A stretch of DNA of 64,000 nucleotides from Phaeospirillum sp. (GTDB taxonomy: Bacteria; Pseudomonadota; Alphaproteobacteria; Rhodospirillales; Magnetospirillaceae): positions 19,693 through 83,692 of the forward strand of contig JAVBXM010000165.1 of NCBI GenBank assembly GCA_030824585.1. The letters are read 5' to 3'. Both the position numbers and the translations under genes were made by a program. This document shows positions 6,426-56,320 of the stretch, piece after piece. The notes beneath the pieces are model-generated. The model was not told the DNA's origin, searched no databases, and saw nothing but the letters and a program-made list of their open reading frames with translations. Within the stretch, counting starts at the first letter, position 1, and each line of letters opens with the position of its first letter.

Positions 6426-6498
6426 ATCGTCCTCGTGTGTTGGGCGGTTGGATGTCCGCCGGGTCAAAATTCACGGAGCCTTTAGCGGCGGCCGCAAG

Positions 6499-7446: not shown

Positions 7447-8013
7447 ATGAAAAAGATCATCATCGGCATGTCGGGGGCTTCTGGCGCCATCTATGGCATT
7501 CGCTTGCTGGAGGCTCTGAAGGCGATCGAAGGGGTGGAAACCCACCTCATCTTGTCCCCCTCGGCGGGCCGGACGGTGGCGGAGGAGACCGACTACAAGC
7601 TGGAGTATGTTCGCTCTCTGGCCGACGTCGTCTATCCGCATGGCGACATCGGCGCGGCGGTGGCCAGTGGGTCCTTCCGCACCGCCGGCATGATCGTGGC
7701 TCCGTGTTCGATCAAGTCGCTCTCGGGGATCGTCCAGTCCTATAACGACAATCTTCTGACCCGAGCCGCCGATGTTTGCCTGAAGGAACGGCGCCCCTTG
7801 ATCCTGATGATCCGCGAGACGCCGCTTCATCTCGGGCACCTGGAATTGCTGGCCCAAGCGGCGCGCTATGGCGCCGTACTGCTGCCGCCCGTGCCGGCGT
7901 TCTACAACCGCCCCCAGACGCTGGACGACATCGTCAATCACAGCGTCGGAAAGGCCCTCGACCAGCTTCACATCGACCACAATCTGTTCCGTCGCTGGAA
8001 GGAAGCTGGATGA
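7447..8013 (+). CDS. ubiX: UbiX flavin prenyltransferase, copy 1
   Basis: IIIGMSGASGAIYGIRLLEAL; VASGSFRTAGMIVAPCSIKSLSGI; RETPLHLGHLELLAQAARYGAVLLPPVPAFYNRP. Confidence 0.93.
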   Translation: MKKIIIGMSGASGAIYGIRLLEALKAIEGVETHLILSPSAGRTVAEETDYKLEYVRSLADVVYPHGDIGAAVASGSFRTAGMIVAPCSIKSLSGIVQSYNDNLLTRAADVCLKERRPLILMIRETPLHLGHLELLAQAARYGAVLLPPVPAFYNRPQTLDDIVNHSVGKALDQLHIDHNLFRRWKEAG

Positions 8014-8052: not shown

Positions 8053-8511
8053 ATGCCGGTACCCGGCGAAATGGCTTCGTCTCATGTGGCTTCTGACGCG
8101 GGGGGTGAAGGGCATCTACTCAAGTGTCTCGTCCGCGTTCCCATGCCCCTCGATCAGGCGGAGTCCACCCAGCTCCTGGCGTTTCGGCCCGATGACGGAG
8201 GCCTGGAAAGTCTCGCCCTGATCGTCGGCTCGCCCTCCTTTCATGGCGAAATTCCGGTCATCGTTCATTTTCAGAATGTGGCCGGCGATCTGGTCGCCAG
8301 CCTGGAGCCGGGTCTTGGCCCGCTTCGCCAGGCCGTCGCCAGGCTGGCGGCTCTCGGAGGGGGCGTATTGTTGTACCTGGCGGTCAACGGGGACAAGGCA
8401 GCAGGGATCGTATCGGCGATACTGCGTCACCTTTCCATCGCCCAGCCCAAATTTCTCGCGCCCCTGGAGCCAGGCCGGGTGAGCCCCATAGGGACACGAA
8501 AGCATGAATGA
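8053..8511 (+). CDS. Short degenerate GTP cyclohydrolase II-like protein lacking Zn-ligand cysteines, copy 1
   Basis: VPMPLDQAESTQLLAFRPDDGGLESLALIVGSPSFHGEIPVIVHFQNVAGDLVASLEPGLGPLRQAVARLAALGGGVLLYLAVNG aligns by eye with RibA ...[43 protein letters not shown] at 27493-28596. Confidence 0.7.
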   Translation: MPVPGEMASSHVASDAGGEGHLLKCLVRVPMPLDQAESTQLLAFRPDDGGLESLALIVGSPSFHGEIPVIVHFQNVAGDLVASLEPGLGPLRQAVARLAALGGGVLLYLAVNGDKAAGIVSAILRHLSIAQPKFLAPLEPGRVSPIGTRKHE

Positions 8512-9007
8512 CAGACTCAATGCCGCATACGGCTTCCTCGCCCGCAATCACGTCGTCTCCTTGGCGCTCTGCCGCGACGATACCCCGTCGGCCTGCTCGC
8601 TGATGTATGCGCACCGGGGATTCGAACTGTTCTGGGTCTCGGACCCGAGCTCAACGCATTCGCAAATCATCGACGCCAGGGCGGGTCGGCGAGCCGCCGC
8701 GACCATTGCCCCCGATTATGATGAGTTCGCGCAAATCCAGGGACTTCAACTGTCCGGCATAGCCTCGAGGGTCGATGGGGCGGCTGAAATGGCCGGGGCC
8801 ATGGGGCTGCTTGCTCGACGCTATCATTTCCTGTCCGATCTCCGCGACCGGCCCGTGGCCCTCGCCGCAGCGATGCTGAAATCCAGGATCTATCGCTTCG
8901 TGCCGGACCGGGCGGTCTTTATCGACAACACCCTTGGCTTCGGCAACAAGACGATCTTCGGCCCACAGGAGCTTGCCTCCGACGACTTGCGTAAGGGTGG
9001 CGAATGA
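8504..9007 (+). CDS. PNPOx-like FMN-binding split-barrel protein, copy 1
   Basis: YGFLARNHVVSLALCRDDTPSACSLMYAHRGFELFWVSDPSSTHSQII...; paralogue at 32603; overlaps preceding ORF by 8 nt. Confidence 0.75.
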   Translation: MNDRLNAAYGFLARNHVVSLALCRDDTPSACSLMYAHRGFELFWVSDPSSTHSQIIDARAGRRAAATIAPDYDEFAQIQGLQLSGIASRVDGAAEMAGAMGLLARRYHFLSDLRDRPVALAAAMLKSRIYRFVPDRAVFIDNTLGFGNKTIFGPQELASDDLRKGGE

Positions 9008-10122
9008 TGAAGGCTGGGACGGGCGCCCCCTGCTTTACCCTGTCTTCCATCGAGGAGATCATCGAGGAAGCCCGCCAGGGCCGCATGTTCATCCTGGTGG
9101 ATGACGAGGATCGCGAGAACGAGGGCGATCTGGTCATTCCCGCCGTGCATGCCGACGCCGAGGCGGTCAACTTCATGGCCCGCTATGGGCGTGGTCTGAT
9201 CTGCCTGTCCATGACACGGGGACGCAGCGAGGAACTGGGCCTGAGGCCCATGAGCTCGGACAACGGCACCCGCATGCAGACCGCCTTCACCGTCTCCATT
9301 GAGGCCTGCGAAGGGGTGACCACCGGCATCTCCGCCGCCGACCGGGCGCGGACCATCCAGGTGGCCATCGATCCCGGCAAGGGCCGCTACGATATCGTCA
9401 CGCCGGGCCATGTCTTCCCCCTGGTGGCGCGGGAAGGCGGCGTACTGGTGCGCGCCGGCCATACCGAGGCGGCGGTGGACATTTCCCGGCTGGCGGGCCT
9501 GAACCCGGCGGGCGTCATCTGCGAGATCATGAACGACGACGGCACCATGGCCCGCATGCCGGATCTGGTGAAGTTCGCCCAGCATCACGGCCTGAAGATC
9601 GCCACCATCGCCGATCTCATCGCCTATCGCCGCCGCAACGACAAGATCGTGGCGCGCGAGCTGGAGGCGCCGTTCCATTCCCAATGGGGCGGCGACTGGA
9701 CGATGATGGTCTATGTCAACACCGTCTCCTATGCCGAGCACATCGCCCTGGTGAAGGGCGACCCCGCCGCCGGCGCCCCGGTGATGGTGCGCGTCCACGC
9801 CGTCAATATCCTGGACGACGTGCTGGGCGACCAGGGTTCGGGCAAGGCCGGCCAGCTTCATTCAGCCATGGAGATGATTGCCGAGCATGGTACCGGCGTG
9901 ATCGTCCTGGTGCGCGAGCCGCGCCCCACCAGCCTGTCGGACCGGGTCCGCGCCCAGCTGGAGAACCGCCCGGCGGCGCCCGAGTTGCGCGATTACGGTG
10001 TCGGCGCCCAGATCCTGCTGGATCTCGGCATCCACGAGATGATCCTGCTGTCCAACACCAAACGCTCCATCATCGGTCTGGATGGCTATGGCCTGAAGGT
10101 GGTCGAGCAGCGTTCTGTGTAG
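9004..10122 (+). CDS. ribB: RibBX: 3,4-dihydroxy-2-butanone-4-phosphate synthase fused to degenerate GTP cyclohydrolase II domain, copy 1
   Basis: DDEDRENEGDLVIPA...AGHTEAAVDISRLAGLNPAGVICEIMNDDGTMAR intact; C-terminal RVHAVNILDDVLGDQGSGKAGQLHSAM lacks the CxxCxC of RibA. Confidence 0.9.
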   Translation: MMKAGTGAPCFTLSSIEEIIEEARQGRMFILVDDEDRENEGDLVIPAVHADAEAVNFMARYGRGLICLSMTRGRSEELGLRPMSSDNGTRMQTAFTVSIEACEGVTTGISAADRARTIQVAIDPGKGRYDIVTPGHVFPLVAREGGVLVRAGHTEAAVDISRLAGLNPAGVICEIMNDDGTMARMPDLVKFAQHHGLKIATIADLIAYRRRNDKIVARELEAPFHSQWGGDWTMMVYVNTVSYAEHIALVKGDPAAGAPVMVRVHAVNILDDVLGDQGSGKAGQLHSAMEMIAEHGTGVIVLVREPRPTSLSDRVRAQLENRPAAPELRDYGVGAQILLDLGIHEMILLSNTKRSIIGLDGYGLKVVEQRSV

Positions 10123-26400: not shown

Positions 26401-27489
26401 ATGACCGGCAGTTCCTTCGGCCATATATTCCGCTACGCCACCTTCGGTGAAAGCCACGGGCCGGCGATCGGGTGCGTTGTCGATGGAGTTCCTCCACGCA
26501 TTCCCCTGAACGAAGCCGATATCCAGTTTTGGCTGGATAAGCGCAAGCCTGGCCAGAATCGCTTCACGACCCCGCGTCGAGAGCCAGATCGGGTGCGAAT
26601 CCTGTCTGGTGTGTTCGAGGGGCTGACCACCGGCACCCCTATCGGACTGCTTATAGAAAATATCGACCAGCGCTCGGGGGATTACGGCGAGATCAAGGAT
26701 AGCTTTCGCCCCGGCCATGCCGACTGGGTCTATCAGCAGAAATACGGCATCCGTGACTATCGCGGCGGCGGGCGCTCCAGTTCTCGGGAAACCGCCATGC
26801 GAGTGGCGGTGGGGGCGGTGGCCCGCCGGATTCTGGCCGTCTTGACGCCTGATGTCCTCATCCGTGGCGCCATGATTCAAATGGGCGCCCATGCCATCGA
26901 CCGTGACGCCTGGGACTGGGATCGTGTCGAATCAAACCCCTTTTGGTGTCCGGATGCACAAGCCGCCAAGGCATGGGAAGTCTGTTTGGACGGAGTCCGC
27001 AAGGCCGGGTCTTCCGTTGGCGGGGTCATCGAGGTGGTGGCGTCGGGCGTTCCGATAGGTCTGGGGGCGCCAGTCTACGACAAATTGGATGCCGATCTGG
27101 CCAAGGCGATGATGAGTATCAACGCGGTCAAGGGAGTGGAGATCGGCGCCGGTTTCGAGGCGGCCTGCCTTTCGGGTGAGAGCAACGCCGACGAGATGCG
27201 CATGGGCGGCGACGGGCGCCCCATGTTCCTCTCCAATAATGCCGGCGGTATCCTGGGCGGCATCTCGACCGGGCAGGATGTGGTGGTCCGGCTTGCGGTG
27301 AAGCCGACCAGTTCCATCCTGACGCCAAGGAAAAGCATCAACCTTCGAGGCGAAGAGGTGGATATTTCCACCAAGGGCCGCCACGACCCCTGTGTTGCCA
27401 TCCGCGCTGTGCCGGTGGCTGAGGCGATGATGGCGGTGACGTTAACCGACCATCTGCTCCGGCATCGAGCGTTGAACCGCCGCTCTTGA
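26401..27489 (+). CDS. aroC: Chorismate synthase
   Basis: [32 protein letters not shown]...[24 protein letters not shown]. Confidence 0.95.
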
Positions 27490-27492
27490 ACG

Positions 27493-28596
27493 TCAGAACA
27501 GATGGCCGCTCCGGCTGGCTTTCGTTTGTAGATAGGCGCCGTTATGCCGGTTGGATGGAAAGATATGAGGAACTCGTTCGGTGACATCGATCCCGAACCG
27601 CCTTACCGCATCGACCTTCTTGGGATTGTTGGTCATGAGCCGAATGCTCGTGACTCCCATGAGGCCAAGTATTTGAGCTGCCGGAATATAGCTGCGCTCA
27701 TCCTCCTCGTACCCTAATTGCAGGTTGGCATCGATCGTGTCAAAACCCCGGTCCTGAAGCCGATAGGCCCGGAGCTTATTGGTCAACCCGATGCCTCTTC
27801 CCTCCTGGGCGAGATAGAGCAGCACGCCCTGGCCGTGCCGTGCGATCTCGGCGACGGCTCCCCTTAGCTGCTCTCCGCAATCGCAACGCAGGGAGCCCAG
27901 CAAGTCCCCGGTGAAACATTCGGAATGCATCCGAGTGAGGATGGATTGGCCTGTGTCGATCCGACCGATGACGATGGCGAGGTGCTCTTCCCCGCCCCCA
28001 AATGCCCGGAAAACGATGGTGCGGGCCGGGCCGACACCAGGAATTGTCACGGGAACGTTCTTCCGCTTGATAAGTGGCGCACAGTCGTGATCAGGAAAAA
28101 CATCCGATGCGGCGATCGCGGGGATCGGTTCGGGAAGTGGCGGGCTTGCGGGTGTCAGTATGATCGCCGGCAGCAATCCCGCTTGCTTGGTCAAAGCGAT
28201 GCAGGCTTGGTCAAGCGGATGGGACGGGAGGACTCTCAGCTTCGGCAGGACCAGTCCGGGAGAAGCGTCCGCCGACGGGTCGATCAGGGATGTGATGATT
28301 TGAGCATTCAGCCCCTCTGGATATGCGATCCGGATGATGTCCCTGCCGGACCGGGGCAGCCCCACCGCGGCGCCTCGGTGCCCTGAAATGGCCAGCACGG
28401 TGTCTTCGGGCGCGTGGCTCTGAAGTCGGGCCAGCATGTCGTGGCGGATTGTCTCGCACGCCAGGATGGTTGCCGAGGCTTCCGCGGAATGGACCAAGAC
28501 GGGCTGACCGCGACGCAGGAATTCGACGGCGGTGCTCAGATTCCGCCGCTGCCGGTTTGTAAGGGCATAGTCATGAGGCGGTATGGGAGAATGCAT
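27493..28596 (-). CDS. ribA: GTP cyclohydrolase II with N-terminal extension; Zn cysteines intact
   Basis: MHSECFTGDLLGSLRCDCGEQLRGAV...LAQEGRGIGLTNKLRAYRLQDRGFDTIDANLQLGYEEDERSY...MTNNPKKV. Confidence 0.93.
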   Translation of the reverse strand: MHSPIPPHDYALTNRQRRNLSTAVEFLRRGQPVLVHSAEASATILACETIRHDMLARLQSHAPEDTVLAISGHRGAAVGLPRSGRDIIRIAYPEGLNAQIITSLIDPSADASPGLVLPKLRVLPSHPLDQACIALTKQAGLLPAIILTPASPPLPEPIPAIAASDVFPDHDCAPLIKRKNVPVTIPGVGPARTIVFRAFGGGEEHLAIVIGRIDTGQSILTRMHSECFTGDLLGSLRCDCGEQLRGAVAEIARHGQGVLLYLAQEGRGIGLTNKLRAYRLQDRGFDTIDANLQLGYEEDERSYIPAAQILGLMGVTSIRLMTNNPKKVDAVRRFGIDVTERVPHIFPSNRHNGAYLQTKASRSGHLF

Positions 28597-28612
28597 TTCT
28601 CGATCCACGTGG

Positions 28613-29128
28613 CTACAATCTGAAGAAGGAAGGCATCTCCAGGGCATAGAGCCGGAGCCAAGGCGTGATGAAATCAAGATTTGCCCCATCCTTGAAGTAG
28701 TCCTGGGAAACCCATTTCAGATCCATGACCTCCATTGGATCGGGGCTTATGTCGCCCTGATGGTAGCCATGAAAAAGATGCACGTACTCGTTCTCGACAA
28801 GACCGTTCCCCACCTCCGTCTGGTAGCGGAAGAAGCCGACGCAGGCCAGTTCGACGTGAATGTTCAATTCCTCGTGGAGGCGTCGTTTGGCGGCCTGTTG
28901 CGTATTCTCCTGCGGGCGTGGGTGGCCGCAGCATGAGTTGGCCCACAGTCCGCCACAATGATATTTCCCAAGTTGCCGCCGCTGTAGCAGCAGGTTGCCC
29001 CGTCCATCCCCGATCATGATCGAGAATGCGCGATGCAGGGCCCCTTGTCGATGCGCGGCGAGCTTTTCCATGCTGCCGACGGGGAGGTCCTCTTCGTCGA
29101 CGATGATGACGGCTTCGGGCGCGGTCAT
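28613..29128 (-). CDS. idi: Isopentenyl-diphosphate delta-isomerase (type 1)
   Basis: HRAFSIMIGDGRGNLLLQRRQLGKYHCGGLWANSCCGHPRPQENTQQAAKRRLHEELNI; Nudix-like IDI motifs. Confidence 0.92.
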   Translation of the reverse strand: MTAPEAVIIVDEEDLPVGSMEKLAAHRQGALHRAFSIMIGDGRGNLLLQRRQLGKYHCGGLWANSCCGHPRPQENTQQAAKRRLHEELNIHVELACVGFFRYQTEVGNGLVENEYVHLFHGYHQGDISPDPMEVMDLKWVSQDYFKDGANLDFITPWLRLYALEMPSFFRL

Positions 29129-29152
29129 GATCAACCCTCATAGATTTTTACA

Positions 29153-31374: not shown

Positions 31375-32214
31375 ATGACCACCATTCAAAGAATGCAGTG
31401 GCGGGTTCGGGTCGCCCAATCATGGAGTCTTACCCTGAGGAGGCTGACCACCATCCAACCGGCCAAGCGTGATCGCCTGATCGGCTTGCTGTCGCCTTTC
31501 GTACTGATGTTGCTATGGGAGTGGGCGGCCCGGGCGGGCCTGATCGACATCCGCTTCTTTCCCGCTCCCAGTCAGATTTTCGGTACCTTCGTCAAGATGG
31601 CGGAGGACGGCACTCTGTGGGCCAATACATGGGCCAGCCTGCAACGCCTGTTCTGGGGGGCCTTGCTCGGGGGCATTCCGGCGTTGGTGCTTGGGGTCGC
31701 CATGGGGCTGTTCCGTCCGTTGCGGGCCGCCATCGACCCGCTGGTGGCACTGACCTACCCCATTCCAAAAAGTGCCATCCTGCCCCTCATCCTGCTTATC
31801 TTTGGCTTGGGCGAGGCGTCGAAAATCGTGATGGTGGCCATTGGCGTCTTCTATCCGATCTGTATCAACGCAACGGCCGGCGTGCTGGAAATCAACAAGA
31901 TCTATCTGGATGTCGGACGGAACTTTCGGGCGACCCGCTGGCAGACGTTCCGGACGGTGGCGCTTCCCGGAGCGTTGCCTTTCATCATGTCCGGCCTGAA
32001 GCTGGGGGTCGGAATGGGGTTGATCCTGATTGCCATCGCCGAAATGATCGGAGCCAAGAGCGGACTGGGCTTCATGATCTGGAACGCCTGGGAAATCCTG
32101 GCGGTGGAGATGATGTATATCGGCCTGATCATGGTTGCCCTGATCGGTTATCTGTTCAACATGCTGCTGACCGAATTGGAGCAGGTGCTGATACCGTGGA
32201 AGGCGGATAAATGA
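31375..32214 (+). CDS. NitT/TauT-type ABC transporter permease
   Basis: LLWEWAARAGLIDIRFFPAPSQIFGTF...EASKIVMVAIGVFYPICINATAG. Confidence 0.92.
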   Translation: MTTIQRMQWRVRVAQSWSLTLRRLTTIQPAKRDRLIGLLSPFVLMLLWEWAARAGLIDIRFFPAPSQIFGTFVKMAEDGTLWANTWASLQRLFWGALLGGIPALVLGVAMGLFRPLRAAIDPLVALTYPIPKSAILPLILLIFGLGEASKIVMVAIGVFYPICINATAGVLEINKIYLDVGRNFRATRWQTFRTVALPGALPFIMSGLKLGVGMGLILIAIAEMIGAKSGLGFMIWNAWEILAVEMMYIGLIMVALIGYLFNMLLTELEQVLIPWKADK

Positions 32215-32606
32215 CGAGTGTCGGCGAGCAACGGGGCGAGGTCCGGGATATGTGGACCCGGACCGGTGAACTGACGCTGGTTACCTCGGCCCGTGTTCCT
32301 CTATGCCAGGCCGAGGATTCCTGTCTGTTCGCGTTCAGGCCGGAGGACGGCGGCGACGAAGTCATCGCCGTCCGTGTCGGGCGGGTGGATGGGGCGGACA
32401 GTCAGCCGCTTGTCATTATTCATCACTTCGACCGGGTCGCGGATGTGGTCGGCAGCCTGGGCGCTGGCCCGGGGCCTCTGCAGGCCGCGGTTCGTCGGCT
32501 TGCCGAGGCCGGAGGCGGCCTTCTTCTTCTGTCCCCCCGCTCCGAGAGGTGGCTGGCCGGCCTGGCCGACGAGATTCTCACCATGCTTCCTGCGTCGATC
32601 CCATGA
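32211..32606 (+). CDS. Short degenerate GTP cyclohydrolase II-like protein lacking Zn-ligand cysteines, copy 2
   Basis: TSARVPLCQAEDSCLFAFRPEDGGDEVIAVRVGRVDGADSQPLVIIHHFDRVADVVGSLGAGPGPLQAAVRRLAEAGGGLLLLS; paralogous to 8053-8511. Confidence 0.7.
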   Translation: MTSVGEQRGEVRDMWTRTGELTLVTSARVPLCQAEDSCLFAFRPEDGGDEVIAVRVGRVDGADSQPLVIIHHFDRVADVVGSLGAGPGPLQAAVRRLAEAGGGLLLLSPRSERWLAGLADEILTMLPASIP

Positions 32607-33091
32607 CAGACTCCTTGCGCCACGCCCTCGCCTTCCTCGAGGCGCACCACGTCATGGCCCTGGCCCTGGCCGTGGACGGATATCCGCATTGCTGTTCGCT
32701 GATGTATGCCAACCAGGGCTTCACCCTTTATTGGGTTTCGGACCCCGCGACCCGGCATTCCACCATCGTCGATGCCCTGCCGGAAACCGAGGCCGGGGTG
32801 ACGGTCGCGCCCGACTACCAGCATTTCGGAGATATCCGAGGCCTGCAGATGTTCGGCACGGCGGCACGGGTGTCCAGCCCGGCCGAGGTGGAGGCGGCCA
32901 TGTCGGCGTTGAAGGGGCGCTTCAGCCTGTTCCGGGAATTCAGCCGCGCCCCGGTCGCCGTCGCCGCCGCCATGGCCAGGGCCAGGGTCTACCGATTCAG
33001 GCCCCATACGGCGGTTTTCATCGACAATACCGCCGGGTTTGGAACCAAGGCGAAATTCACCACCAAGGAGCTTGCATCCGTCGGCGGCTAG
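32603..33091 (+). CDS. PNPOx-like FMN-binding split-barrel protein, copy 2
   Basis: MTDSLRHALAFLEAHHVMALALAVDGYPHCCSLMYANQGFTLYWVSDPATRHSTIVDA; ATG overlaps the upstream TGA. Confidence 0.75.
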   Translation: MTDSLRHALAFLEAHHVMALALAVDGYPHCCSLMYANQGFTLYWVSDPATRHSTIVDALPETEAGVTVAPDYQHFGDIRGLQMFGTAARVSSPAEVEAAMSALKGRFSLFREFSRAPVAVAAAMARARVYRFRPHTAVFIDNTAGFGTKAKFTTKELASVGG

Positions 33092-34347: not shown

Positions 34348-34362
34348 TTAGGTAAGACCAAT
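34348..34362. promoter_or_regulatory. Candidate GntR operator TTAGGT-AAG-ACCAAT, merging into palindrome AAGACCAA-TGT-TTGGTCTT (34354-34372)
   Basis: Upstream of ubiD3; perfect 8-3-8 palindrome. Confidence 0.5.
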
Positions 34363-34426
34363 GTTTGGTCTTAGTTTTCTACGCGCGGGCCGATCAGAAT
34401 GCCCGCCAACGCTTAAGGAGAAGGCC

Positions 34427-35944
34427 ATGGATGGCGATAGGAAGGTTTCGGCCGAGAAGGAAATCAGCTGCCTGGGCGACTGGATGGCGCAGGTCGAGGC
34501 GATCGGTGAGCTCAAGCGCATCACCGCTCCGGTGGACTCGGATCTGGAAATGGGGTCCATCACCTACATGAACGGCAAGACCGTCGGCGGTCCCACCCTG
34601 CTGTTTGAGAACATCAAGGGGTATCCGGGCGGCAGGCTGCTGTTCAATCCTTATGGCACCAGCCTCAATCGCGTCGCCATTTCGATCCGCGAGGAGATGG
34701 GCAAGAGCCCGATCGAATACGTCCAGATTCTGGCGGAGAAGATGAAGCGGCGTATTCCGCCGAAGTTCATCGATGCCAAGGACGCACCGGTCAACCAGAA
34801 CATCGATCGCGACGGCAAGGTCAACGTCAACAAGTTCCCGGCGCCGAAGATGTGGCCGCGGGACGGCGGCAAGTACATCGGCACCGCCGATTCGGTGATC
34901 ACCCAGGATGCCAACAGCGGCCGCATCAACATGGGTACCTACCGGCAGATGATCAAGAGCGACAAGGAAGTCGGCTTCTATGCCTCGCCCGGCAAGGATG
35001 CCGTCCTGGACCGCGAGACTTGGTGGGTGCAGGGCAAGCCGGCGCCGGTGGCGGCGGTCTATGGCCAGGATCCGCTGCTGTTCCTGACCTCGGCCACCTC
35101 GTTTCCCAAGGATGTGTCCGAGTACGAGTTCGCCGGCGGCATCAACGGTGCACCCATCGAGGTGTTCAAGAGCGACGTCACCGGCCTGACCCTGCCGGCC
35201 AATGCCGAGATCATCATCGAGGGCTTTTCCTACCCCGACAAGACCTTCGAGGAGGGGCCGTTCGGCGAGTTCACCGGCTATTACGGCCGGCCCGGCGGTG
35301 CCACGCCCTATATCGAAATCAAGGCGATCCGCTATCGCAACAACCCCATCGTGACCAGCGCCCTGATGGCGGACTTCCCGTCCAACGAGTGCGGCACCAT
35401 GTGGGCGATGGCCAAGGCCGCCAAGGTGTGGAACGACCTCAACGCGCTGGGCGTGCCCGGCATCAAGGGCGTGTGGTCCCCGCCCGAAGGGGCCGGCTGG
35501 GGCATGACCGTGGTCTCCATCGAGCAGAAGTACGCCGGCCACGCCGCCCAGGTCATGGCGCTGGCGGCCCAGTGCATGGGCGGTGCCTATTTCACCAAGT
35601 ACGTGGTCGTCGTCGATGACGACGTGGACCCCACCAACCTGTCCGAGGTGGTGTGGGCGATGGTCACCCGGTCTCGGCCGGCGCAGACCATCGAGATTCT
35701 GCGCGAAACCTGGAGCACCTATCTCGATCCCAGCCTGAACCCGCCGGAAATCCGCCCGTGGGGTTCCAAGTGCCTGATCAACGCCTGCAAGGAGTTCAAG
35801 AACCTGAACGTGTTCTCGCCTCGCAACCTGCTGAAGAAGGAAATGTACGAGCAGGTCTGCACCCGCTGGGCCGAGTTGGGCTTTGAAGGCAAGCCGCCGA
35901 AGATCACCAACTTCGAGCCTTTCAAGGGGGCTCATATCGGCTAG
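34427..35944 (+). CDS. ubiD: UbiD-family decarboxylase, copy 3
   Basis: RINMGTYR and EEGPFGEFTGYYGRPGG; RBS AAGGAGAAGG before ATG at 34427. Confidence 0.92.
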   Translation: MDGDRKVSAEKEISCLGDWMAQVEAIGELKRITAPVDSDLEMGSITYMNGKTVGGPTLLFENIKGYPGGRLLFNPYGTSLNRVAISIREEMGKSPIEYVQILAEKMKRRIPPKFIDAKDAPVNQNIDRDGKVNVNKFPAPKMWPRDGGKYIGTADSVITQDANSGRINMGTYRQMIKSDKEVGFYASPGKDAVLDRETWWVQGKPAPVAAVYGQDPLLFLTSATSFPKDVSEYEFAGGINGAPIEVFKSDVTGLTLPANAEIIIEGFSYPDKTFEEGPFGEFTGYYGRPGGATPYIEIKAIRYRNNPIVTSALMADFPSNECGTMWAMAKAAKVWNDLNALGVPGIKGVWSPPEGAGWGMTVVSIEQKYAGHAAQVMALAAQCMGGAYFTKYVVVVDDDVDPTNLSEVVWAMVTRSRPAQTIEILRETWSTYLDPSLNPPEIRPWGSKCLINACKEFKNLNVFSPRNLLKKEMYEQVCTRWAELGFEGKPPKITNFEPFKGAHIG

Positions 35945-36007: not shown

Positions 36008-36595
36008 ATGACCCTACCTCTGGTTGTGGCAATCACCGGTGCGACCGGTGTCATCTATGGCGTCGAGATTCTCCGGGCGCTGAAAGACATCGGCCACCCG
36101 ACGCACCTGATCCTCAGTGAGGCGGCGGTCCGCAATTTCGAAATCGAGACGGATATCGATGTCGCCGATGTCGCCGCCCTGGCCGACGTCGTTCACAGCA
36201 CCAGGAATCTCGGCGCCTCCGTCGCCAGCGGGTCGTTCAAGACCAAAGGGATGGTGGTGGCTCCCTGCTCGATCAAGTCGCTTTCGGGAATTGCCAATTC
36301 CTTTAACGACAATCTGGTGGTGCGTGCCGCCGACGTCTGTCTCAAGGAGCGTCGGCGGCTGGTTCTGATGGTGCGGGAAACGCCACTGCACAAAGGACAT
36401 CTCGATCTCATGAGCCGATGCGCCGAGTTGGGAGCGACCATACTGCCCCCCATGCCGGCATTCTATCACGGTCCGCAGACCATCAAGGAAATAGTCAACC
36501 AAAGTGTTGGAAAGACACTCGACCAGTTCGATATCGAGCATAATTTATTCCACCGTTGGAGCGGCAAGATGGACATGAAGCCGGCTCCCATCTGA
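36008..36595 (+). CDS. ubiX: UbiX flavin prenyltransferase, copy 2
   Basis: VAITGATGVIYGVEILRALK; SGSFKTKGMVVAPCSIKSLSGI; RETPLHKGHLDLM; PPMPAFYHGPQT. Confidence 0.93.
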   Translation: MTLPLVVAITGATGVIYGVEILRALKDIGHPTHLILSEAAVRNFEIETDIDVADVAALADVVHSTRNLGASVASGSFKTKGMVVAPCSIKSLSGIANSFNDNLVVRAADVCLKERRRLVLMVRETPLHKGHLDLMSRCAELGATILPPMPAFYHGPQTIKEIVNQSVGKTLDQFDIEHNLFHRWSGKMDMKPAPI

Positions 36596-36823: not shown

Positions 36824-38923
36824 ATGAAGCACTATATTGATGGCATTTCGGTGAGAACATTGCTGAACATCGTCATATGTCTTGGCGGCGCCATTCTTGT
36901 CGTGATCTGCCTTTACGCTTTTTCCGTGGCGCTCTCCGAGACGGCCACTGTCCGCCGGACATCGGCCATCGCCATTTCCGCCAGGAACCTTATCCAGTCC
37001 TACGAATCCGCGCGGGTATTCCGTGCTCGCGTCTATGCCGTACTGGAGGCGGATCAAAGGATTTCCCAGGATGACGCGGGCTGGATCGCCGCCAGGCACG
37101 TCGAGATCGGGGATACGCTCAACGCGGCCATCGCCGCCCTGCAGGGAGAAGAATCAGAGTTTGGTGCGACCATGACGGCGGTGCGCGATGGGTTCGCGCT
37201 GGTCGAGCGGATTTTTCCAGAGGCCGTCGCCGCATCGCGGCTAATCAAGACGGAACGCCATCCCGACCTGTCGCGCACATGGAGCGCCGCCGGAGGAAAG
37301 CTGCTCGAGGCCATGGAGAAACTCGGGACACAGCTGGATGTGGCAAACCGGGGAAGCGACGCGCGGATCGACCATCTGCTGTCGATCCGACAGGCAGCGG
37401 CGGCGACCCGGGTCAGCGCCGGCAACGAAACCATCCTGATTTCGCGCTCCCTATCGGGAAACCGGCTGTTGAGCGGTGAACAGATGGAGGTGGTGCATCG
37501 GCTACGGGGCGAGTTTACCGCTACCTGGGCGCTCACGAAGCGTCAGGGAGAGGCCCGTGGCACCCCCCGTCGAGTTGCGGACGCCATCGCCCAGGCCGAA
37601 GGCAGCTTTTTCAGGCAGGCCATGCCGCAGCATGAACAGATAGCTGCGGCATTGTCGCGAGGAGAGGACGTCAAGGTGCGGGGGCTCGATTTCTCGCGCC
37701 AGGCGGGAAGCGATCTTAACGCGATCAGCGCCGTAGGTATCGAAGCCATGGCGGCCGTGGTCGAGTACACCAGGGAACGCGCCTTGTCGGCCCGCAATAC
37801 GCTTCTTGCCGCATCCGTGTGTCTCTTTGCCTCCATTGGGTACTTCGTGTTCAGCACCCGTCTGATCGCACGGCGCGTCAGTCGGCCTCTCGATCAGTTC
37901 ACCCAAACCATCGTCGCGTTCGCCAACCAGCGCTACGACGTTGCCGTAACCGAAATTTCCACCCGCGACGAGTTGGGACGGATGAGCGCGGCATTACGCG
38001 AACTGGCTGACAACGGCCGCAAGTTCCAGGAACTCCAGGAGCAGCGGATTCACGAGCAACAGCGGGTGACGGCGCGGGCGGAGCAAGTTGAGGCCGCATG
38101 CCGTTTGTTCGAGGAACGGGTCCAGCAGGGCCTGTCCGATCTTGATCAAGCCATGGCGCACGTCGATCAATCGGCAGAAGACATGAATGCCTCCGCAAGC
38201 GAGGCGTGCCGGGCATCCCGGACGGTCGCCACCGCGTCGGAACAAGTATCGGCCACCATGGGCAGCATGGCGGCGGCTAGCGACCAGTTCTCCGCTTCCG
38301 TCAGGGAAATCAGCCGGCAAGCCGCGCAATCCACCGAAATCGCCGCCGATGCGGTCGCCAAGGCGGAACGGACAGATGTGACCATCCGCGGATTGGCGGC
38401 GGTCAGCGGCAAGATCGGAGAGATCGTCTCGCTCATCCATGGGATCGCCGCGCAGACCAATCTCCTGGCTCTGAACGCGACCATCGAGGCGGCGAGAGCG
38501 GGCGAGTCCGGTAAGGGATTCACCGTTGTCGCCAGCGAGGTCAAGGGGTTGGCCAATCAGACGGCCATGGCGACGGATGAGATAACGACGCAGGTTCAGC
38601 AGATACAGAGCATGACCCTGGAAGCGGTGGACGACGTGCATGTCATCGGTTCGGTAATTCAGAATATGCGTGAAACCACCACCAATATTGCCATCGCCAT
38701 CGAGCAACAGGGCGCCACGACGCAGGAAATCGCCCAAAACATCAACGAAGCATCCACCGCGACCCGGATCATCTCATCGGGAACGGCGGGCCTCGTCGAC
38801 CAAACGGAACAATCGACCGAGAGGGCCAAGGGCATCAAGACGGCATCCGCATCCATGCGCGATGAGGTTGCAACCGTGCGCGCGGAAGTATCCGAATTTC
38901 TCGAGGGGATTCGCAACCTGTGA
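36824..38923 (+). CDS. Methyl-accepting chemotaxis protein (periplasmic sensor, HAMP, MA domain)
   Basis: KIGEIVSLIHGIAAQTNLLALNATIEAARAGESGKGFTVVASEVKGLANQTAMATDEI. Confidence 0.93.
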   Translation: MKHYIDGISVRTLLNIVICLGGAILVVICLYAFSVALSETATVRRTSAIAISARNLIQSYESARVFRARVYAVLEADQRISQDDAGWIAARHVEIGDTLNAAIAALQGEESEFGATMTAVRDGFALVERIFPEAVAASRLIKTERHPDLSRTWSAAGGKLLEAMEKLGTQLDVANRGSDARIDHLLSIRQAAAATRVSAGNETILISRSLSGNRLLSGEQMEVVHRLRGEFTATWALTKRQGEARGTPRRVADAIAQAEGSFFRQAMPQHEQIAAALSRGEDVKVRGLDFSRQAGSDLNAISAVGIEAMAAVVEYTRERALSARNTLLAASVCLFASIGYFVFSTRLIARRVSRPLDQFTQTIVAFANQRYDVAVTEISTRDELGRMSAALRELADNGRKFQELQEQRIHEQQRVTARAEQVEAACRLFEERVQQGLSDLDQAMAHVDQSAEDMNASASEACRASRTVATASEQVSATMGSMAAASDQFSASVREISRQAAQSTEIAADAVAKAERTDVTIRGLAAVSGKIGEIVSLIHGIAAQTNLLALNATIEAARAGESGKGFTVVASEVKGLANQTAMATDEITTQVQQIQSMTLEAVDDVHVIGSVIQNMRETTTNIAIAIEQQGATTQEIAQNINEASTATRIISSGTAGLVDQTEQSTERAKGIKTASASMRDEVATVRAEVSEFLEGIRNL

Positions 38924-38972
38924 TTGGAGGCCGTTTTTTCTTGAGGACGGCATGGAATGGAGGCAGACGGCC

Positions 38973-39566
38973 ATGTTCACCGGCATCGTCACCGATCTCG
39001 GCGTGGTGCGCCGCATCGTTCGCGACGAGGGGCGGGAGGCCCGCTTCGAGATCGCCAGCGGCTACGACACCAGCACCATCGCCATCGGCGCCAGCATCGC
39101 CCATAATGGCGTGTGCCTGACCATCATCGAGGTGGGGCCGGACTGGCACGCGGTGGAAGCCTCGGCCGAGACCCTGTCCAAGACCACCCTGGGCGGCTGG
39201 ACGGAAGGCTCCAGGGTCAATCTGGAGCGGGCGTTGAAGGTGGGCGACGAGCTGGGCGGCCACATCGTCTCCGGCCATGTGGACGGCGTCGCCAAGGTCG
39301 TCGACATTCGCCCCGAGAACGAATCCCTGCGCTTCACCTTCGAGACCCCCGCCGACCTGGCCTGTTTCGTCGCTCCCAAGGGTTCGGTGGCGCTGGACGG
39401 CGTGTCGCTCACCGTCAATGAGGTTGATGGGCGCCGGTTCGGCATCAACGTCATCCCCCATACCCAGGCGGTGACCACCTTCGGCACCTATCGTCCCGGC
39501 GACGAGGTGAATATGGAAATCGACATGCTGGCGCGCTATGTGGCCCGGCTGCTGGGAAGGGAATAA
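38973..39566 (+). CDS. ribE: Riboflavin synthase alpha chain
   Basis: MFTGIVTDLGVVRRI...IAHNGVCLTIIEVG...GGHIVSGHVDGVAKV...SVALDGVSLTVNEV. Confidence 0.95.
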   Translation: MFTGIVTDLGVVRRIVRDEGREARFEIASGYDTSTIAIGASIAHNGVCLTIIEVGPDWHAVEASAETLSKTTLGGWTEGSRVNLERALKVGDELGGHIVSGHVDGVAKVVDIRPENESLRFTFETPADLACFVAPKGSVALDGVSLTVNEVDGRRFGINVIPHTQAVTTFGTYRPGDEVNMEIDMLARYVARLLGRE

Positions 39567-39570
39567 GATC

Positions 39571-40686
39571 TTGGCTACGCAATATAGCGATCAGCTTTCC
39601 AGTATCGAGGACATCATCGAGGAGGCCCGCCAGGGCCGCATGTTCATCCTGGTGGATGACGAGAACCGCGAGAACGAGGGCGATCTGGTCATTCCCGCCG
39701 AGATGGCCAACGCCGACGCCATCAATTTCATGGCCCGTTTCGGGCGCGGGCTGATCTGCCTGTCGCTGACGAGGGGGCGCTGCGAGCATCTGGGCCTGAA
39801 GCCCATGAGCGCCGACAACGGCACCCGCATGGAAACCGCCTTCACCGTCTCCATCGAGGCGCGGGAAGGCGTCACCACCGGCATCTCGGCGGCCGACCGG
39901 GCGCGGACGGTGCAAGTCGCCATCGACACCGGCAAGACCCGCTACGACATCGTCACGCCGGGCCACGTCTTTCCGTTGATGGCCCGCGACGGCGGCGTTC
40001 TGGTGCGCGCCGGCCACACCGAGGCGGCGGTGGACATCTCGCGTCTGGCCGGGCTCAACCCGTCCGGCGTGATCTGCGAGATCATGAACGACGACGGCAC
40101 CATGGCCCGCATGCCCGATCTGGTGAGGTTCGCCCAGCATCACGGCCTGAAGATCGCCACCATCGCCGATTTGATCGCCTATCGCCGCCGCAACGACAAG
40201 ATCGTGGCGCGCGAGGTGGAGGCGCCGTTCCATTCCAAGTGGGGCGGCGACTGGAAGATGATGGTCTACACCAACACGGTGGCCTATGCCGAGCACATCG
40301 CCCTGGTCAAGGGCGACCTGAATGCCGAAGGCCCGGTGATGGTCCGCGTCCACGCCGTCAACGTGCTGGACGACGTGCTGGGCGACCAGGGCTCGGGCAA
40401 GGCCGGCGAGCTCCATTCCGCCATGGAAATGATTGCCGGCCATGGTTCGGGCGTGATCGTGCTGATCCGCGAGCCGCGCCCCACCAGCTTGTCCGACATG
40501 GTCCGCGCCCATCTGGAGCGGCGCCCGCCGGCTCCGGCGCTGCGCGATTACGGCGTCGGCGCCCAGATCCTGCTCGATCTCGGCGTGCACGAAATGATTC
40601 TGCTGTCCAACACCAAGCGCTCCATCGTCGGCCTGGAAGGCTATGGCATGAAGGTGGTGGAGCAGCGGCCGATTCCGGTCGGCTGA
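39571..40686 (+). CDS. ribB: RibBX: DHBP synthase fused to degenerate GTP cyclohydrolase II domain, copy 2 (TTG start proposed)
   Basis: Nearly collinear with 9004-10122; RVHAVNVLDDVLGDQGSGKAGELHSAM lacks RibA cysteines. Confidence 0.9.
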   Translation: MATQYSDQLSSIEDIIEEARQGRMFILVDDENRENEGDLVIPAEMANADAINFMARFGRGLICLSLTRGRCEHLGLKPMSADNGTRMETAFTVSIEAREGVTTGISAADRARTVQVAIDTGKTRYDIVTPGHVFPLMARDGGVLVRAGHTEAAVDISRLAGLNPSGVICEIMNDDGTMARMPDLVRFAQHHGLKIATIADLIAYRRRNDKIVAREVEAPFHSKWGGDWKMMVYTNTVAYAEHIALVKGDLNAEGPVMVRVHAVNVLDDVLGDQGSGKAGELHSAMEMIAGHGSGVIVLIREPRPTSLSDMVRAHLERRPPAPALRDYGVGAQILLDLGVHEMILLSNTKRSIVGLEGYGMKVVEQRPIPVG

Positions 40687-40702
40687 ACGGTACCGACGAG
40701 GG

Positions 40703-40725
40703 CCGGCCCCGTCTTGCGGGGCCGG
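40703..40725. terminator. 9-bp GC hairpin CCGGCCCCG-TCTTG-CGGGGCCGG between ribBX and ribH
   Basis: Read directly. Confidence 0.45.
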
Positions 40726-40820
40726 AATGAGGAGGCAAGCCCAAGGGGCGCCGCGGCTTATGCCGCGAAAGCCAAGCGAAGCGCCCGGCGCTTGAGGGCT
40801 ATGTTAAGGAGAGTTCTCAA

Positions 40821-41270
40821 ATGGCGAAGGTTCTCATCATCGAGGCCCGCTTCTACGATCACATCGCCGACGGCCTTTTGGCCGGGGCGCGCGCCGAACT
40901 CGACAAGGCGGGCGTGGCCCACGACCTGCTGGTAGTGCCGGGCATCTTCGAACTGCCTGCCGCGCTGAAACTGGTGCTGACCGCCGCCGAGCAGGGTAAC
41001 AACAAGGCCCGCTACGACGGCTTCGTCACCCTGGGCTGCGCCATCCGGGGCGAATCCGACCATTACCACCACGTGGGCACCGAGTGCGTGCGAGGGATAG
41101 CCGATCTGGCCATGGCCTATGACCTGGCGCTGGGCAACGGGCTGCTGACCGTGCACAACGAGGCCCAGGCCCTGGCGCGGTCCGATCCGGCACGCAAGAA
41201 TCTGGGGGGGCAGGCGGCGCGCGCCTGCCTGCGCATGATGGCGGTGAAGAAAGAGCTGGGGCTGGCCTGA
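40821..41270 (+). CDS. ribH: 6,7-dimethyl-8-ribityllumazine synthase
   Basis: [47 protein letters not shown]. Confidence 0.94.
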
Positions 41271-45984: not shown

Positions 45985-46734
45985 GTGAGCACCAGTTCTA
46001 AAATCGAGTGGACGGAGCAGACGTGGAACCCGACAACGGGTTGCACCAAGATTTCGCCTGGCTGCAAGCACTGCTATGCGGAGGTGATGGCCCGTCGCCT
46101 CCACGCCATGGGCGCTGCCGGCTACGAAAGCGGATTCAACCTCGCCCTACACCCTGAGCGCACTGCTCAGCCGCTGGCGCGCAAGAAGCCGACAGTCTAT
46201 TTCGTCAATTCGATGAGCGACCTGTTCCACCACGACATCCCGGACACGTTTCTGGATGAAGTGTTCGGGGTGATCTCCCAGACCCCCCAGCACACCTACC
46301 AGATTCTGACCAAGCGGGCGGAGCGGCTACCTCAGTATTTCTCCTCTCGCCGTTGCCCGCCGAACGTCTGGCTGGGCGTATCCGTGGAGGACCGCGCCTA
46401 TGGGCTGCCGCGCATTGACCATCTGCGCCAGGTCGATGCAGGCGTCCGGTTCCTTTCGATCGAGCCATTGCTGGAAGACCTCGGTTCCTTCGACCTCACC
46501 GGCATTCATTGGGTGATTGTCGGGGGAGAGTCCGGACACAAGGCCCGGCCGATGGAGGAGGCTTGGGTCGAGAACATCAAGCGCCAGGCCGACAGGACCG
46601 GCGTTGCCTTCTTCTTCAAGCAGTGGGGCGGTTGGGGCGCCGACGGCGTCAAGCGCCACAAGAAGGCGAACGGGCGGGTGTTCAAGGGGCGGACGTGGAA
46701 CGCCTATCCGGAAGCTACGGCTACAGCGCGTTGA
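45985..46734 (+). CDS. DUF5131 / phage Gp37-Gp68 family three-Cys-motif protein
   Basis: SKIEWTEQTWNPTTGCTKISPGCKHCYAEVMARRL (C-x6-C-x2-C)...PTVYFVNSMSDLFHHDIP...WLGVSVED...FLSIEPLLEDLG...WVIVGGESG. Confidence 0.88.
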   Translation: MSTSSKIEWTEQTWNPTTGCTKISPGCKHCYAEVMARRLHAMGAAGYESGFNLALHPERTAQPLARKKPTVYFVNSMSDLFHHDIPDTFLDEVFGVISQTPQHTYQILTKRAERLPQYFSSRRCPPNVWLGVSVEDRAYGLPRIDHLRQVDAGVRFLSIEPLLEDLGSFDLTGIHWVIVGGESGHKARPMEEAWVENIKRQADRTGVAFFFKQWGGWGADGVKRHKKANGRVFKGRTWNAYPEATATAR

Positions 46735-47593
46735 TGACGCCCTTCGCTATCTTAATCGCGAGCCCAAATGCCCTCGGGCTTGGGTTTGATGCAGCAAAAT
46801 ATAAAGCAAAAAGGGGCGCTCCGGTTGACTGACAGAATATCTTCGGCTCGCTGACAGCCGGGAATACTCCCTTGAGGCGTTCCGACACGTATTTCAGCAT
46901 CTGGCTGTGACTCGCGGCCCTGGTCTCGCCCTCATCGCCAAAAATCGACAGCTGCTTTTCCGGTTCGTAGAACTTTTTTCGCCAGTCGTCAGTCCCAAGA
47001 ATGCGGGTAATGGCCGCCTCCTTTTCGGGATCAATGTTCTCGGCCTTTTTTGCGGCCTGCCGATAGAGGCCTGAGTATGGAAAGAGATACCAGACGTCGA
47101 TAGCTTTCGTGTCGGCAATCGCTTGCAGCGTCGCCCATTCAACGTGCAGCCCATACGGGTCGAGAAATAGAACGGCGCGCGTGTTCCGCCAGTCGAACTT
47201 TCCGCAAAGATCACGTAATGCCGAGTTGGCATCGCCATGAATGATCTCGATGGAGCGGTCGGAATACTCTGTCGCCAAGGATTGAAGGGCCGCAAGCTTT
47301 TTGGGCGCAAGTTCCATAAAGCAACAGTGGTCGAAGGGCGGATTGACCTGCAACGCAATACGCGCAGATCCATCAACAGTCGTTGTGCTGCCAGCCATTT
47401 TCACGTCACAACGCCCGGTGCCTGCAAAGGCATCGACATAGACCAAGCGGAAGTTTTGGTTCTTCAGAGCAACTGTGAATGCCGACAAATAATTCTCAAG
47501 AACTGCAAGCTTTAAGAGCGTCCATGCTCCACCGAAGCTATGCCGGTCCTTGAGTCCATTCATCTCCCCTGAACAAGCGGTTTCCTCCAGCAA
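46721..47593 (-). CDS. tcmP: Three-Cys-motif partner protein TcmP
   Basis: KLAVLENYLSAFTVALKNQNFRLVYVDAFAGTGR...LFLDPYGLHVEWATLQAIADTKAIDVWYLFPYSG; convergent with 14-nt overlap to the DUF5131 gene. Confidence 0.85.
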   Translation of the reverse strand: MLEETACSGEMNGLKDRHSFGGAWTLLKLAVLENYLSAFTVALKNQNFRLVYVDAFAGTGRCDVKMAGSTTTVDGSARIALQVNPPFDHCCFMELAPKKLAALQSLATEYSDRSIEIIHGDANSALRDLCGKFDWRNTRAVLFLDPYGLHVEWATLQAIADTKAIDVWYLFPYSGLYRQAAKKAENIDPEKEAAITRILGTDDWRKKFYEPEKQLSIFGDEGETRAASHSQMLKYVSERLKGVFPAVSEPKIFCQSTGAPLFALYFAASNPSPRAFGLAIKIAKGVINAL

Positions 47594-47611
47594 GCTTCGA
47601 ACTCCGACTGG

Positions 47612-50293
47612 TCATGGAACAACGAACTGCCTCTCCAACCCTGCAAGGGTCATATTCTCGGCGATGACATCATGCGGGATGAGCAGGTATTTCCAGGGCT
47701 TTCCGCCATAGCTCTCGGCGTGGTCGCTAGCATGGCGGCACCATTTGACCGCCGCGTCACGCTTGGCCAGGACATCCTCGTCCGTCATCTGGTTGGCGGC
47801 CTTGGGTTCCAGCATGTAGATCGTGTCGGCAGTTTCAGCGACGAAGTCCGGCTGGTATTCCGGGTGGTCGGCGCCCCGCTTGTAGAAAATCTGGAACTGG
47901 CCCTTGGTCGGCTTGAACCATTTCAACGCTTCCCGTTCCAGGATCACCGACATCTTGCGTTCCGCGTCGGACTGGAACTTCTGCACCGGGTAGAGGCACT
48001 TCTGGAAGCCACCGAAGATGTATTTAGCCATGTTGCTCTTGTCGGCAGGCGATGTGCGGAAATCCATCGGCGGCTCGGTCGCCGAAGTGGTGAAGGCGCT
48101 GGACCTCAACTCGGTGAAGCCCTTGCTTACCACGACTTCGTAATCGACCGCCTCCTCCCAGTAGTGGCCCTGCATCTGGGCGTGGACGAAACGAGCGATC
48201 TCCCGCTGATAGAGGCGCAGCACCCGACGCGCGTCCTCCGCCGAGAGATATCCCAGAAGATGTCCCGTCACCTGGCCAGCCAGGTCGTAGAGAAGATCGG
48301 CATGGTCGTCGTAGGCGATATCGTCGAAGTCGATCAGACCGCCGACGATATAATCATCCAGGCGGCTCTCCTCGATCCCGCCATGACCAAGGCCGATGAT
48401 TTCCAGGTGGTTGGTCCGCAGGTGCTGGACCCACAATTCCTCCGACGGCGCCTGATAGTTGATCTTGGACAGGTCCAACGTGAACGGCCTGAAGCCCGAA
48501 CGGACTTCACCCTTGGGAACCACTAGAATGCGCGGAATGTCGATGGTCTGCAGGACCACCAGTTCCGTGGTCTTGGCCACGACAGCCGCCAAGTCTAACC
48601 TGCTCACCCCCTCCAACTCCAACTGCTGGGGACGGTATTGCGCTGCCACCTCGCGCAGGACCGTTTCCTGAACCTCCGGGTTCTGAAGATAGGTCACGCT
48701 GGGGAGCTTGCCCGGTTGGTTCTCCAGCTTGCGGATCACCTCATAGGTAATCTGGGCGACTTTTTGCTCCTCGGGCGTATTGAAGGCTGGCGCCTCGCCG
48801 CCGGAAACCACGCTCGTACTGGCGGTCACCTGCTCGGGCTGGAAACCCAGCTTGTTCGCCAGCCGCGACTGCGAAACCACGGTGGCCGTCTTCTGCTGAA
48901 TCTGCTCGGGGTTCAGGATCACCTGCTGAAGTCGGATGGTCGAGTTCGGACGGTTGGCCTCCTCGACAATTTCCTGGAACTTGTCGTGGGCGATGATATT
49001 GAGGCGATCCACGGAGGTGACGCCGGTGCGCTTGCCATAGGGCAGACGCAGGCCCCGGCCGATGGACTGCTCGATCAGAGTGCGGGCATTGGCCGCCCGC
49101 AGGGGCACGATGGTGTAAAGGTTGGTGACGTCCCAGCCTTCTTTCAGCATGTTGACGTGGATGACAATCTCGGTCGGCTCCTCGGTGTGTTCCACCTTCA
49201 GCAGCCGCTCGACCATCTCGTCTTCCTCGGCCCCGGTCTTGCTGGAATCGACCTGGATCACCTTGTGGGCGTAGCGCCCCTCGAAGAAAGCGTCAGACTG
49301 GATCAACTGCATGAGCTGCCCGGCGTGGGTGGTGTCGCGGGCGATGACCAGCACGAACGGCTTGACGATGGCGTTGCTGGTCTCGCGAGCATAGGTCTCC
49401 AGTTCGACCTTAACCCCCTCATGCAGGCGCACGCCGTCTTCCAGCTTCAGTCGCTCGATCTCCTCGACCGACATGCCGGTCGGGTTGAAGTCCTTGCGGG
49501 TGACCACCGCCGGTTCCTTGACGAAGCCATCCTCCATGGCGCGGCCCAGGGGGTAATCGAGAATGACGTTCTTGAACGCCACCGGCCCCTTGTTGGTTTC
49601 CACGAACGGGGTGGCGGTCAGTTCCAGGCCCAGGACCGGCTTCAATTCGTTGATGGCGCGCACCCCGGCCGAGGCCCGATAGCGGTGTGATTCGTCCATC
49701 AAAAGGACAAGATCGGGCAGATTGGCGAGGTAATCGAAATAGCTCTCGCCGATGTACTCCGACAGCCGCTTGATACGCGGTGACTTGCCGCCCCGGACTT
49801 CGGAATTGATCTTCGAGATGTTGAAGATGTTGATCTTGCAGCGGAGCAGATCGTTCAGCAGCATGCCGCGCGATTCGTAGTTGTCGCCGGTGATGACCTC
49901 GGGGGCCTCGCTGGCGAATTCAGCGATGCCCTTGAACACGTATTTGGGTGTGTTCGGGGTAAAATCGGCAATCAGCTTATTGTAGATGGTCAGGTTCGGC
50001 GCCAGGACGAAGAAATTGTTGATGCCGTGCGCCAGATGCAGATAGGTGATGAAGGCGCCCATCAGACGGGTCTTGCCGACGCCGGTGGCCAGCGCAAAAC
50101 ACAGGCTGGGGAAATCGCGCTCGAAATCGGTGACGCTCGGGAACTCGGCCTTGATGGCCTCCAGCGCCACTGCCACATCGGACGCCTTCCTGGGCGGAAT
50201 GACCTCGGTGATCCGGTCGAGAATTTCGAGAGACTGCCGCTGAGGCGGGCGCAGACTGAGACGGCCAGCGATGGCGTTGACATGACGGTTCAT
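47612..50293 (-). CDS. Type III-like restriction endonuclease/helicase (Res)
   Basis: LCFALATGVGKTRLMGAFITYLH (Walker A), LLMDESHRYRA, MLKEGWDVTNLYTIVPLRAANARTLIEQSIGRGLRLPYG; C-terminal FVAETADTIYMLEPKA nuclease-like. Confidence 0.88.
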   Translation of the reverse strand: MNRHVNAIAGRLSLRPPQRQSLEILDRITEVIPPRKASDVAVALEAIKAEFPSVTDFERDFPSLCFALATGVGKTRLMGAFITYLHLAHGINNFFVLAPNLTIYNKLIADFTPNTPKYVFKGIAEFASEAPEVITGDNYESRGMLLNDLLRCKINIFNISKINSEVRGGKSPRIKRLSEYIGESYFDYLANLPDLVLLMDESHRYRASAGVRAINELKPVLGLELTATPFVETNKGPVAFKNVILDYPLGRAMEDGFVKEPAVVTRKDFNPTGMSVEEIERLKLEDGVRLHEGVKVELETYARETSNAIVKPFVLVIARDTTHAGQLMQLIQSDAFFEGRYAHKVIQVDSSKTGAEEDEMVERLLKVEHTEEPTEIVIHVNMLKEGWDVTNLYTIVPLRAANARTLIEQSIGRGLRLPYGKRTGVTSVDRLNIIAHDKFQEIVEEANRPNSTIRLQQVILNPEQIQQKTATVVSQSRLANKLGFQPEQVTASTSVVSGGEAPAFNTPEEQKVAQITYEVIRKLENQPGKLPSVTYLQNPEVQETVLREVAAQYRPQQLELEGVSRLDLAAVVAKTTELVVLQTIDIPRILVVPKGEVRSGFRPFTLDLSKINYQAPSEELWVQHLRTNHLEIIGLGHGGIEESRLDDYIVGGLIDFDDIAYDDHADLLYDLAGQVTGHLLGYLSAEDARRVLRLYQREIARFVHAQMQGHYWEEAVDYEVVVSKGFTELRSSAFTTSATEPPMDFRTSPADKSNMAKYIFGGFQKCLYPVQKFQSDAERKMSVILEREALKWFKPTKGQFQIFYKRGADHPEYQPDFVAETADTIYMLEPKAANQMTDEDVLAKRDAAVKWCRHASDHAESYGGKPWKYLLIPHDVIAENMTLAGLERQFVVP

Positions 50294-51987: not shown

Positions 51988-51989
51988 GA

Positions 51990-53816: not shown

Positions 53817-53819
53817 GGT

Positions 53820-56126: not shown

Positions 56127-56320
56127 TTTTCGGCAGCCTCCTTGTTCGACAGGTCGATTTCGAGGTTCCAGTCCCCTTCCTTCATTTCACCGGCGGCGAC
56201 CTTCGCGATCAGTTGGTCGCGTTTGACAGGGCGGAGAAGGCCATCCTTGATCAGGCGATCGACGATAAGCGTCGCCAACTGGCTCGCGGGCTTTTCATCC
56301 GTCGTCATTGCAGCGTCCAT
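56123..56320 (-). CDS. Small protein (65 aa) between helicase and ATPase genes
   Basis: ORF overlaps both neighbours (16 nt and 4 nt); MDAAMTTDEKPASQLATLIVDRLIKDGLLRPVKRDQLIAKVAAGEMKEGDWNLEIDLSNKEAAEK. Confidence 0.65.
   Translation of the reverse strand: MDAAMTTDEKPASQLATLIVDRLIKDGLLRPVKRDQLIAKVAAGEMKEGDWNLEIDLSNKEAAEK

Follow-up and report, generated by a model that had tools for sequence, protein, structure and literature searches.

What could a short protein related to GTP cyclohydrolase II (GCHII, RibA) be doing when it has lost the zinc-binding cysteines of that enzyme? The question is raised by an ORF of 131 aa, here called copy 2 (P0001; 32211..32606, plus strand), in a stretch of 64,000 nucleotides, the window, which corresponds to contig C108:19693-83692 of an assembly of 4.94 Mb in 262 contigs, with contig membership taken as assembled. 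The ORF is present with the residues quoted in an earlier note made from the sequence, and its assignment draws on the ORF list, a PF00925 match, an alignment with RibA and an AF2 model. As that note had reported, its ATG overlaps the TGA of an ABC transporter permease (31375..32214, plus strand, from ORF and overlap reading) by 4 nt (ATGA). Met14 (position 32250) is a possible alternative start, so that the start codon is uncertain; the frame is the only stop-free one of six, with a codon score just above that of one antisense frame.

Copy 2 scores 24.5 bits against Pfam GTP_cyclohydro2 (PF00925; gathering cut-off 23.3), and the match covers only the N-terminal half of GCHII, profile positions 7-94 of 165. 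Among NCBIfam models it matches PRK08815, a RibA model, best, and its scores fall far short of every NCBIfam RibA cut-off. Aligned with 36 canonical RibA domains, copy 2 carries D/A/P in the Zn-Cys columns, as previously claimed, in place of the GCHII zinc cysteines (HSEC ... RCDCG). The loss of the zinc site alone is an incomplete description: the protein ends at about profile position 94 and also lacks the EGRGIGL loop and the whole C-terminal half with the catalytic Asp/Arg. In E. coli RibA, quite apart from the Zn cysteines, the EGR loop and the Asp/Arg residues have catalytic roles. Since zinc ligands, EGR loop and catalytic C-terminal half are all missing, copy 2 cannot be a GTP cyclohydrolase II; judging from the absent residues, GCHII catalysis is excluded.

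Structure prediction, which the earlier note had proposed as a check, gave an AF2 model of copy 2 with pLDDT 81 and pTM 0.74 from an alignment that included canonical RibA rows. All Foldseek matches in the PDB with E < 0.01 were GCHII structures (2bz0, 4i14), separated by a clear gap from the rest, and none had the Pba3/4-like fold of LpdD or the HpaC-like fold of PhdC. The best match, E. coli GCHII (2bz0), had a TM score of 0.55 and an rmsd of 7.3, values to be read with the RibA rows of the alignment in mind. A GCHII N-half fold is plausible for copy 2, from an alignment biased towards such a fold.

Copy 2 is one of three half-GCHII genes in the host genome, which shares 84% identity in its RibA region with Magnetospirillum sp. 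SS-4 and Paramagnetospirillum caucaseum. Copy 1 (P0002; 8053..8511, plus strand; 152 aa), found in the window by tblastn and matching PF00925 with 35.1 bits, is 44% identical to copy 2 over 104 aa (tblastn E 1e-17), which places their homology beyond chance. With the starts chosen in our analysis the two differ by 21 residues, not by the 26 stated before, and the earlier count of two copies has to be raised by a third on contig C78 (L007:7331-7714, minus strand), which starts inside the stop of a ubiX gene. A fourth member was found in G029, a metagenome-assembled genome (MAG) of the same taxonomic family; this protein of 183 aa starts within a ubiX stop (GTGA). A C-terminal half is still present in degenerate form, the PF00925 match reaching position 163. 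The protein resembles a stage midway between RibA and the half-length proteins. The zinc site is lost in all four members, in keeping with the suggestion that the copies share the lost site, but the replacing residues, with columns read by eye, differ among them: D/A/P in copy 2, N/P/L in copy 1, D/P/L in copy 3 and G/Q/P in the MAG. The FRPxxGG stretch and GGG are kept in all four. An origin from the GCHII domain of RibBA was considered and rejected; the short genes are nearer in sequence to RibA.

The neighbourhoods of these genes, which the earlier note had missed, contain genes for making and handling prenylated flavin. In copy 1 the order is ubiX, short gene, PNPOx, ribBA: a UbiX flavin prenyltransferase (7447..8013, plus strand; PRK06029, 268 bits) lies directly 5', a PNPOx/YhbP-like protein (P0004; 8504..9007, plus strand; profile search and gene order) overlaps the short gene by 8 nt, and a RibBA whose GCHII domain lacks the Zn cysteines (RibBX-like; 9004..10122, plus strand; profile search) follows next. 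Copy 3 shows ubiX, short gene and PNPOx in the same order. For copy 2 the order is ABC operon, short gene, PNPOx, MFS, ubiD, ubiX; its co-translated partner (P0003; 32603..33091, plus strand; PF12900 30.3 bits, PF01243 29.4 bits, and 49.5 bits against the YhbP model, under that model's cut-off) is a PNPOx/YhbP-like split-barrel protein whose start overlaps the copy 2 stop as ATGA, and the cluster continues with a UbiD-family (de)carboxylase (34361..35944, plus strand; TIGR00148, 286 bits) and a UbiX (36008..36595, plus strand; PRK06029, 256 bits). UbiX is therefore encoded directly upstream in copy 1, copy 3 and the MAG, whereas copy 2 does not adjoin ubiX but lies inside a ubiD-ubiX cluster. 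The host genome encodes exactly three PNPOx-like proteins of the relevant subfamily, each directly 3' of one short gene, and codons overlap at all three junctions; in the 16 kb read around the MAG gene, no PNPOx gene was present. Transport-operon coupling, as proposed before, agrees with the ABC overlap of copy 2 but with that copy only, the constant neighbour being the downstream PNPOx-like gene, and transport-operon membership as a general rule is rejected because the other copies follow ubiX. Furthermore, profile searches place precursor genes for prenylated FMN (prFMN) in the window (RibBA twice, RibA and Idi), and translations read as RibE and RibH lie around 38797-41270.

How widespread are the short gene and its surroundings? 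Among 297 genomes of the order, no members were found beyond the host and G029. A pattern scan of about 85,000 GTDB species, with sensitivity limited by the pattern, returned 80 loci, of which 79 were ordinary RibA with the C-x-C motif and one was G029; a plasmid collection searched with copy 1 gave no match, and viral contigs held no relative of the short gene. The PNPOx type itself occurs in five other genomes among 385 of the class Alphaproteobacteria, with ubiX within about 2 kb in all five and directly upstream in three. In G008, a relative from the same genus, ubiX runs straight into PNPOx through an ATGA overlap of stop and start, without an intervening GCHII gene, and none of 43 other ubiX neighbourhoods (15 from the class, 28 from the order, G008 included) had a GCHII-like gene within about 1.5 kb of ubiX. 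The ubiX-PNPOx pair is older than the insertion of the short gene, which, given G008, is an optional insert at a junction that works without it and, given its absence from all 43 neighbourhoods, is dispensable for such systems.

Nearly all genomes with the PNPOx/YhbP-like type show a linkage of its gene to ubiX (window 8504-9007 and 32603-33091; L007:6858-7346; L219:6435-6899). Against PDB sequences the protein gave only weak split-barrel matches (best 1rfe, Rv2991, E 1e-4), and its AF2 model, with pLDDT 39, was unusable. By analogy with PhdC and YclD, it is a candidate prFMN maturase or flavin reductase. A PNPOx-family relative also lies near the phenylphosphate carboxylase genes ppcABD of Azoarcus sp. 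KH32C plasmid pAZKH (L043, 8968-9432). In the open-licence papers searched, none was found that united UbiX, prenylated FMN and pyridoxamine.

Given these settings, we tentatively suggest, with a probability of roughly 0.47, that the short protein is a RibA-derived pseudo-enzyme, itself non-catalytic, that serves as an accessory to flavin or prFMN supply through protein contact. It would have arisen from an alphaproteobacterial RibA, retaining no more of the domain than its N-terminal beta/alpha half, and would have entered between translationally coupled ubiX and PNPOx genes or, for copy 2, have been placed just 5' of PNPOx in a ubiD-ubiX cluster. There it may act by protein contact as an accessory in the supply of flavin cofactor to UbiX/UbiD. 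We infer that the short protein is expressed, makes such contacts and has a role in FMN or prenylated-FMN supply; as to partners, the co-translated split-barrel protein, UbiX or RibB/RibA would be our guess. This reading is favoured because the catalytic residues are lost, because RibBX and LpdD/PhdC/YclD offer precedents and because prFMN precursor genes abound in the window; the match of three short genes to exactly three PNPOx-like genes, ubiX upstream, the constraint at codon position 2, the open frames and the predicted GCHII fold support it further. It is weakened by the absence of the gene from all 43 ubiX neighbourhoods, that of G008 among them, and by very long branches, as well as by copy 2 not being beside ubiX and the MAG copy having no PNPOx neighbour.

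The nearest functional precedent is the cysteine-less X domain of RibBX. In Shewanella this domain is reported (PMC10012899, citing Brutinel 2013) to have no GCHII activity yet to regulate the attached RibB. Like the RibX of Shewanella and Aeromonas, the short protein is a GCHII-like domain without Zn or catalytic residues. RibX, however, is attached to RibB and has almost its full length, whereas the short protein stands alone at half length, and its sequence is nearer to RibA than to the GCHII domains of the window's RibBA proteins. RibA itself (PF00925; E. coli 2bz0) resembles the short protein in its N-terminal half, by sequence and by predicted fold, and differs in having the Zn cysteines, the EGR loop and the catalytic C-terminal half. 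Arabidopsis RIBA isoforms (PMC3509567) are likewise paralogues retained after losing one of two activities, but they are full-length plant bifunctional fusions. Small accessories of UbiDX systems form the other precedent, LpdD as a prFMNH2 chaperone (PMC10865409) and PhdC and YclD as prFMN maturases (PMC13040415). All are small proteins from UbiX/UbiD gene neighbourhoods, and they handle the cofactor or enhance UbiD activity; the short gene likewise adjoins ubiX or lies in a ubiD-ubiX cluster. The folds of these accessories (Pba3/4-like; HpaC-like flavin reductase) are unrelated to that of the short protein, and any resemblance to PhdC/YclD would lie with the neighbouring split-barrel protein rather than with the short protein. 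Co-expression of UbiX alone leaves many UbiD (de)carboxylases inactive, and the missing accessories are emerging singly (LpdD, PhdC, YclD). In Alphaproteobacteria, the split-barrel gene linked to ubiX offers a concrete candidate for such an accessory, and the half-GCHII inserted next to it would be a free-standing case of the regulatory RibX idea.

The main alternative, which we consider unlikely without being negligible, is that the short genes are non-functional, decaying RibA duplicates whose open frames are tolerated at the coupled junction because they couple PNPOx translation. Every catalytic feature is gone, lengths vary from 127 to 183 aa across the four members, evolution is very fast in a tiny family that is missing from the same-genus G008, and translational coupling by itself might hold a frame open. 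Nevertheless, in each of the six pairs codon position 2 has diverged significantly less than position 3 (Fisher p 9e-6 to 8e-3, for pairs that are non-independent and with position 3 near saturation); the divergence at positions 1/2/3 is 0.52/0.45/0.67 between copies 1 and 2 and 0.37/0.37/0.63 between copies 1 and 3. No stop interrupts the annotated frame in any of the four members, and its codon score exceeds those of the other forward frames; four intact ORFs are unlikely under free drift: in a substitution-only simulation of moderate drift, at a replacement probability of 0.35, the chances of no stop were 0.34, 0.16, 0.30 and 0.14. Coupling alone would not preserve amino acids, whereas the FRPxxGG and GGG motifs persist throughout. 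These data favour, though not strongly, a selected protein over decay, with fast evolution in a tiny family; some of the constraint could predate the loss of the zinc site. The phylogenetic tree has very long branches and pairs copies 1 and 3 (97/93), but it neither establishes nor rules out a single origin of the four members (AU p 0.34). A selected family rather than random decay, as the earlier note had argued, thus agrees with intact coupled ORFs in several divergent copies and with the position-2 constraint. The same note had held that absence of the ORF from close relatives keeping the operon would speak against such a family, and this is in part what was found, as G008 keeps ubiX-PNPOx without it.

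A rather less probable alternative to the accessory reading is that the short protein binds flavin or prFMN as an LpdD-like chaperone, taking reduced prFMN over from UbiX and passing it on to the PNPOx-like protein, the candidate maturase, or to UbiD. Copies 1 and 3, where the short gene stands between ubiX and PNPOx, would suit such a relay, the split-barrel superfamily of the PNPOx-like partner is one of flavin binders, and LpdD and PhdC show that UbiDX systems have recruited unrelated small prFMN-handling proteins (PMC10865409, PMC13040415). However, flavin binding is not known for the GCHII N-half, the fold is unlike those of LpdD and PhdC, the MAG copy lacks a PNPOx neighbour and G008 manages without the short gene. 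More improbable still, in our estimate, is that the short protein works together with its split-barrel partner as a new two-part device for handling prenylated FMN, chaperone plus maturase, the first part of which would have been recruited from the starting enzyme of flavin synthesis. That the protein is a new enzyme, still able to bind or convert a nucleotide or pterin-like substrate, would agree with homology to a GTP-using enzyme but is most improbable, since Zn ligands, EGR loop and catalytic half are absent in all three host copies and only the MAG keeps a degenerate C-half.

Several other features of the window touch on the same cofactors. Beside the copy 2 UbiD cluster lie an isopentenyl-diphosphate isomerase (Idi; TIGR02150, 117 bits) and a second RibA, in which the Zn cysteines are intact (27493-29134, minus strand); DMAPP and FMN are the two inputs of UbiX, and Idi and RibA are their precursor genes. 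The two RibBA proteins (9004-10122 and 39538-40686) are 87% identical, and both have GCHII domains without Zn cysteines, that is, RibBX-like. A second chorismate synthase gene (26401-27489), 81% identical to the copy on contig C53, lies beside RibA/Idi; reduced FMN is a requirement of chorismate synthase too. Phenylphosphate-carboxylase-like alpha (UbiD family) and gamma subunits are encoded together near the copy 1 ubiX (4688-6467, minus strand). Finally, positions 45985-59220 contain large ORFs, mostly on the minus strand and helicase-, methylase- or AAA-like by eye, possibly a defence or mobile region.
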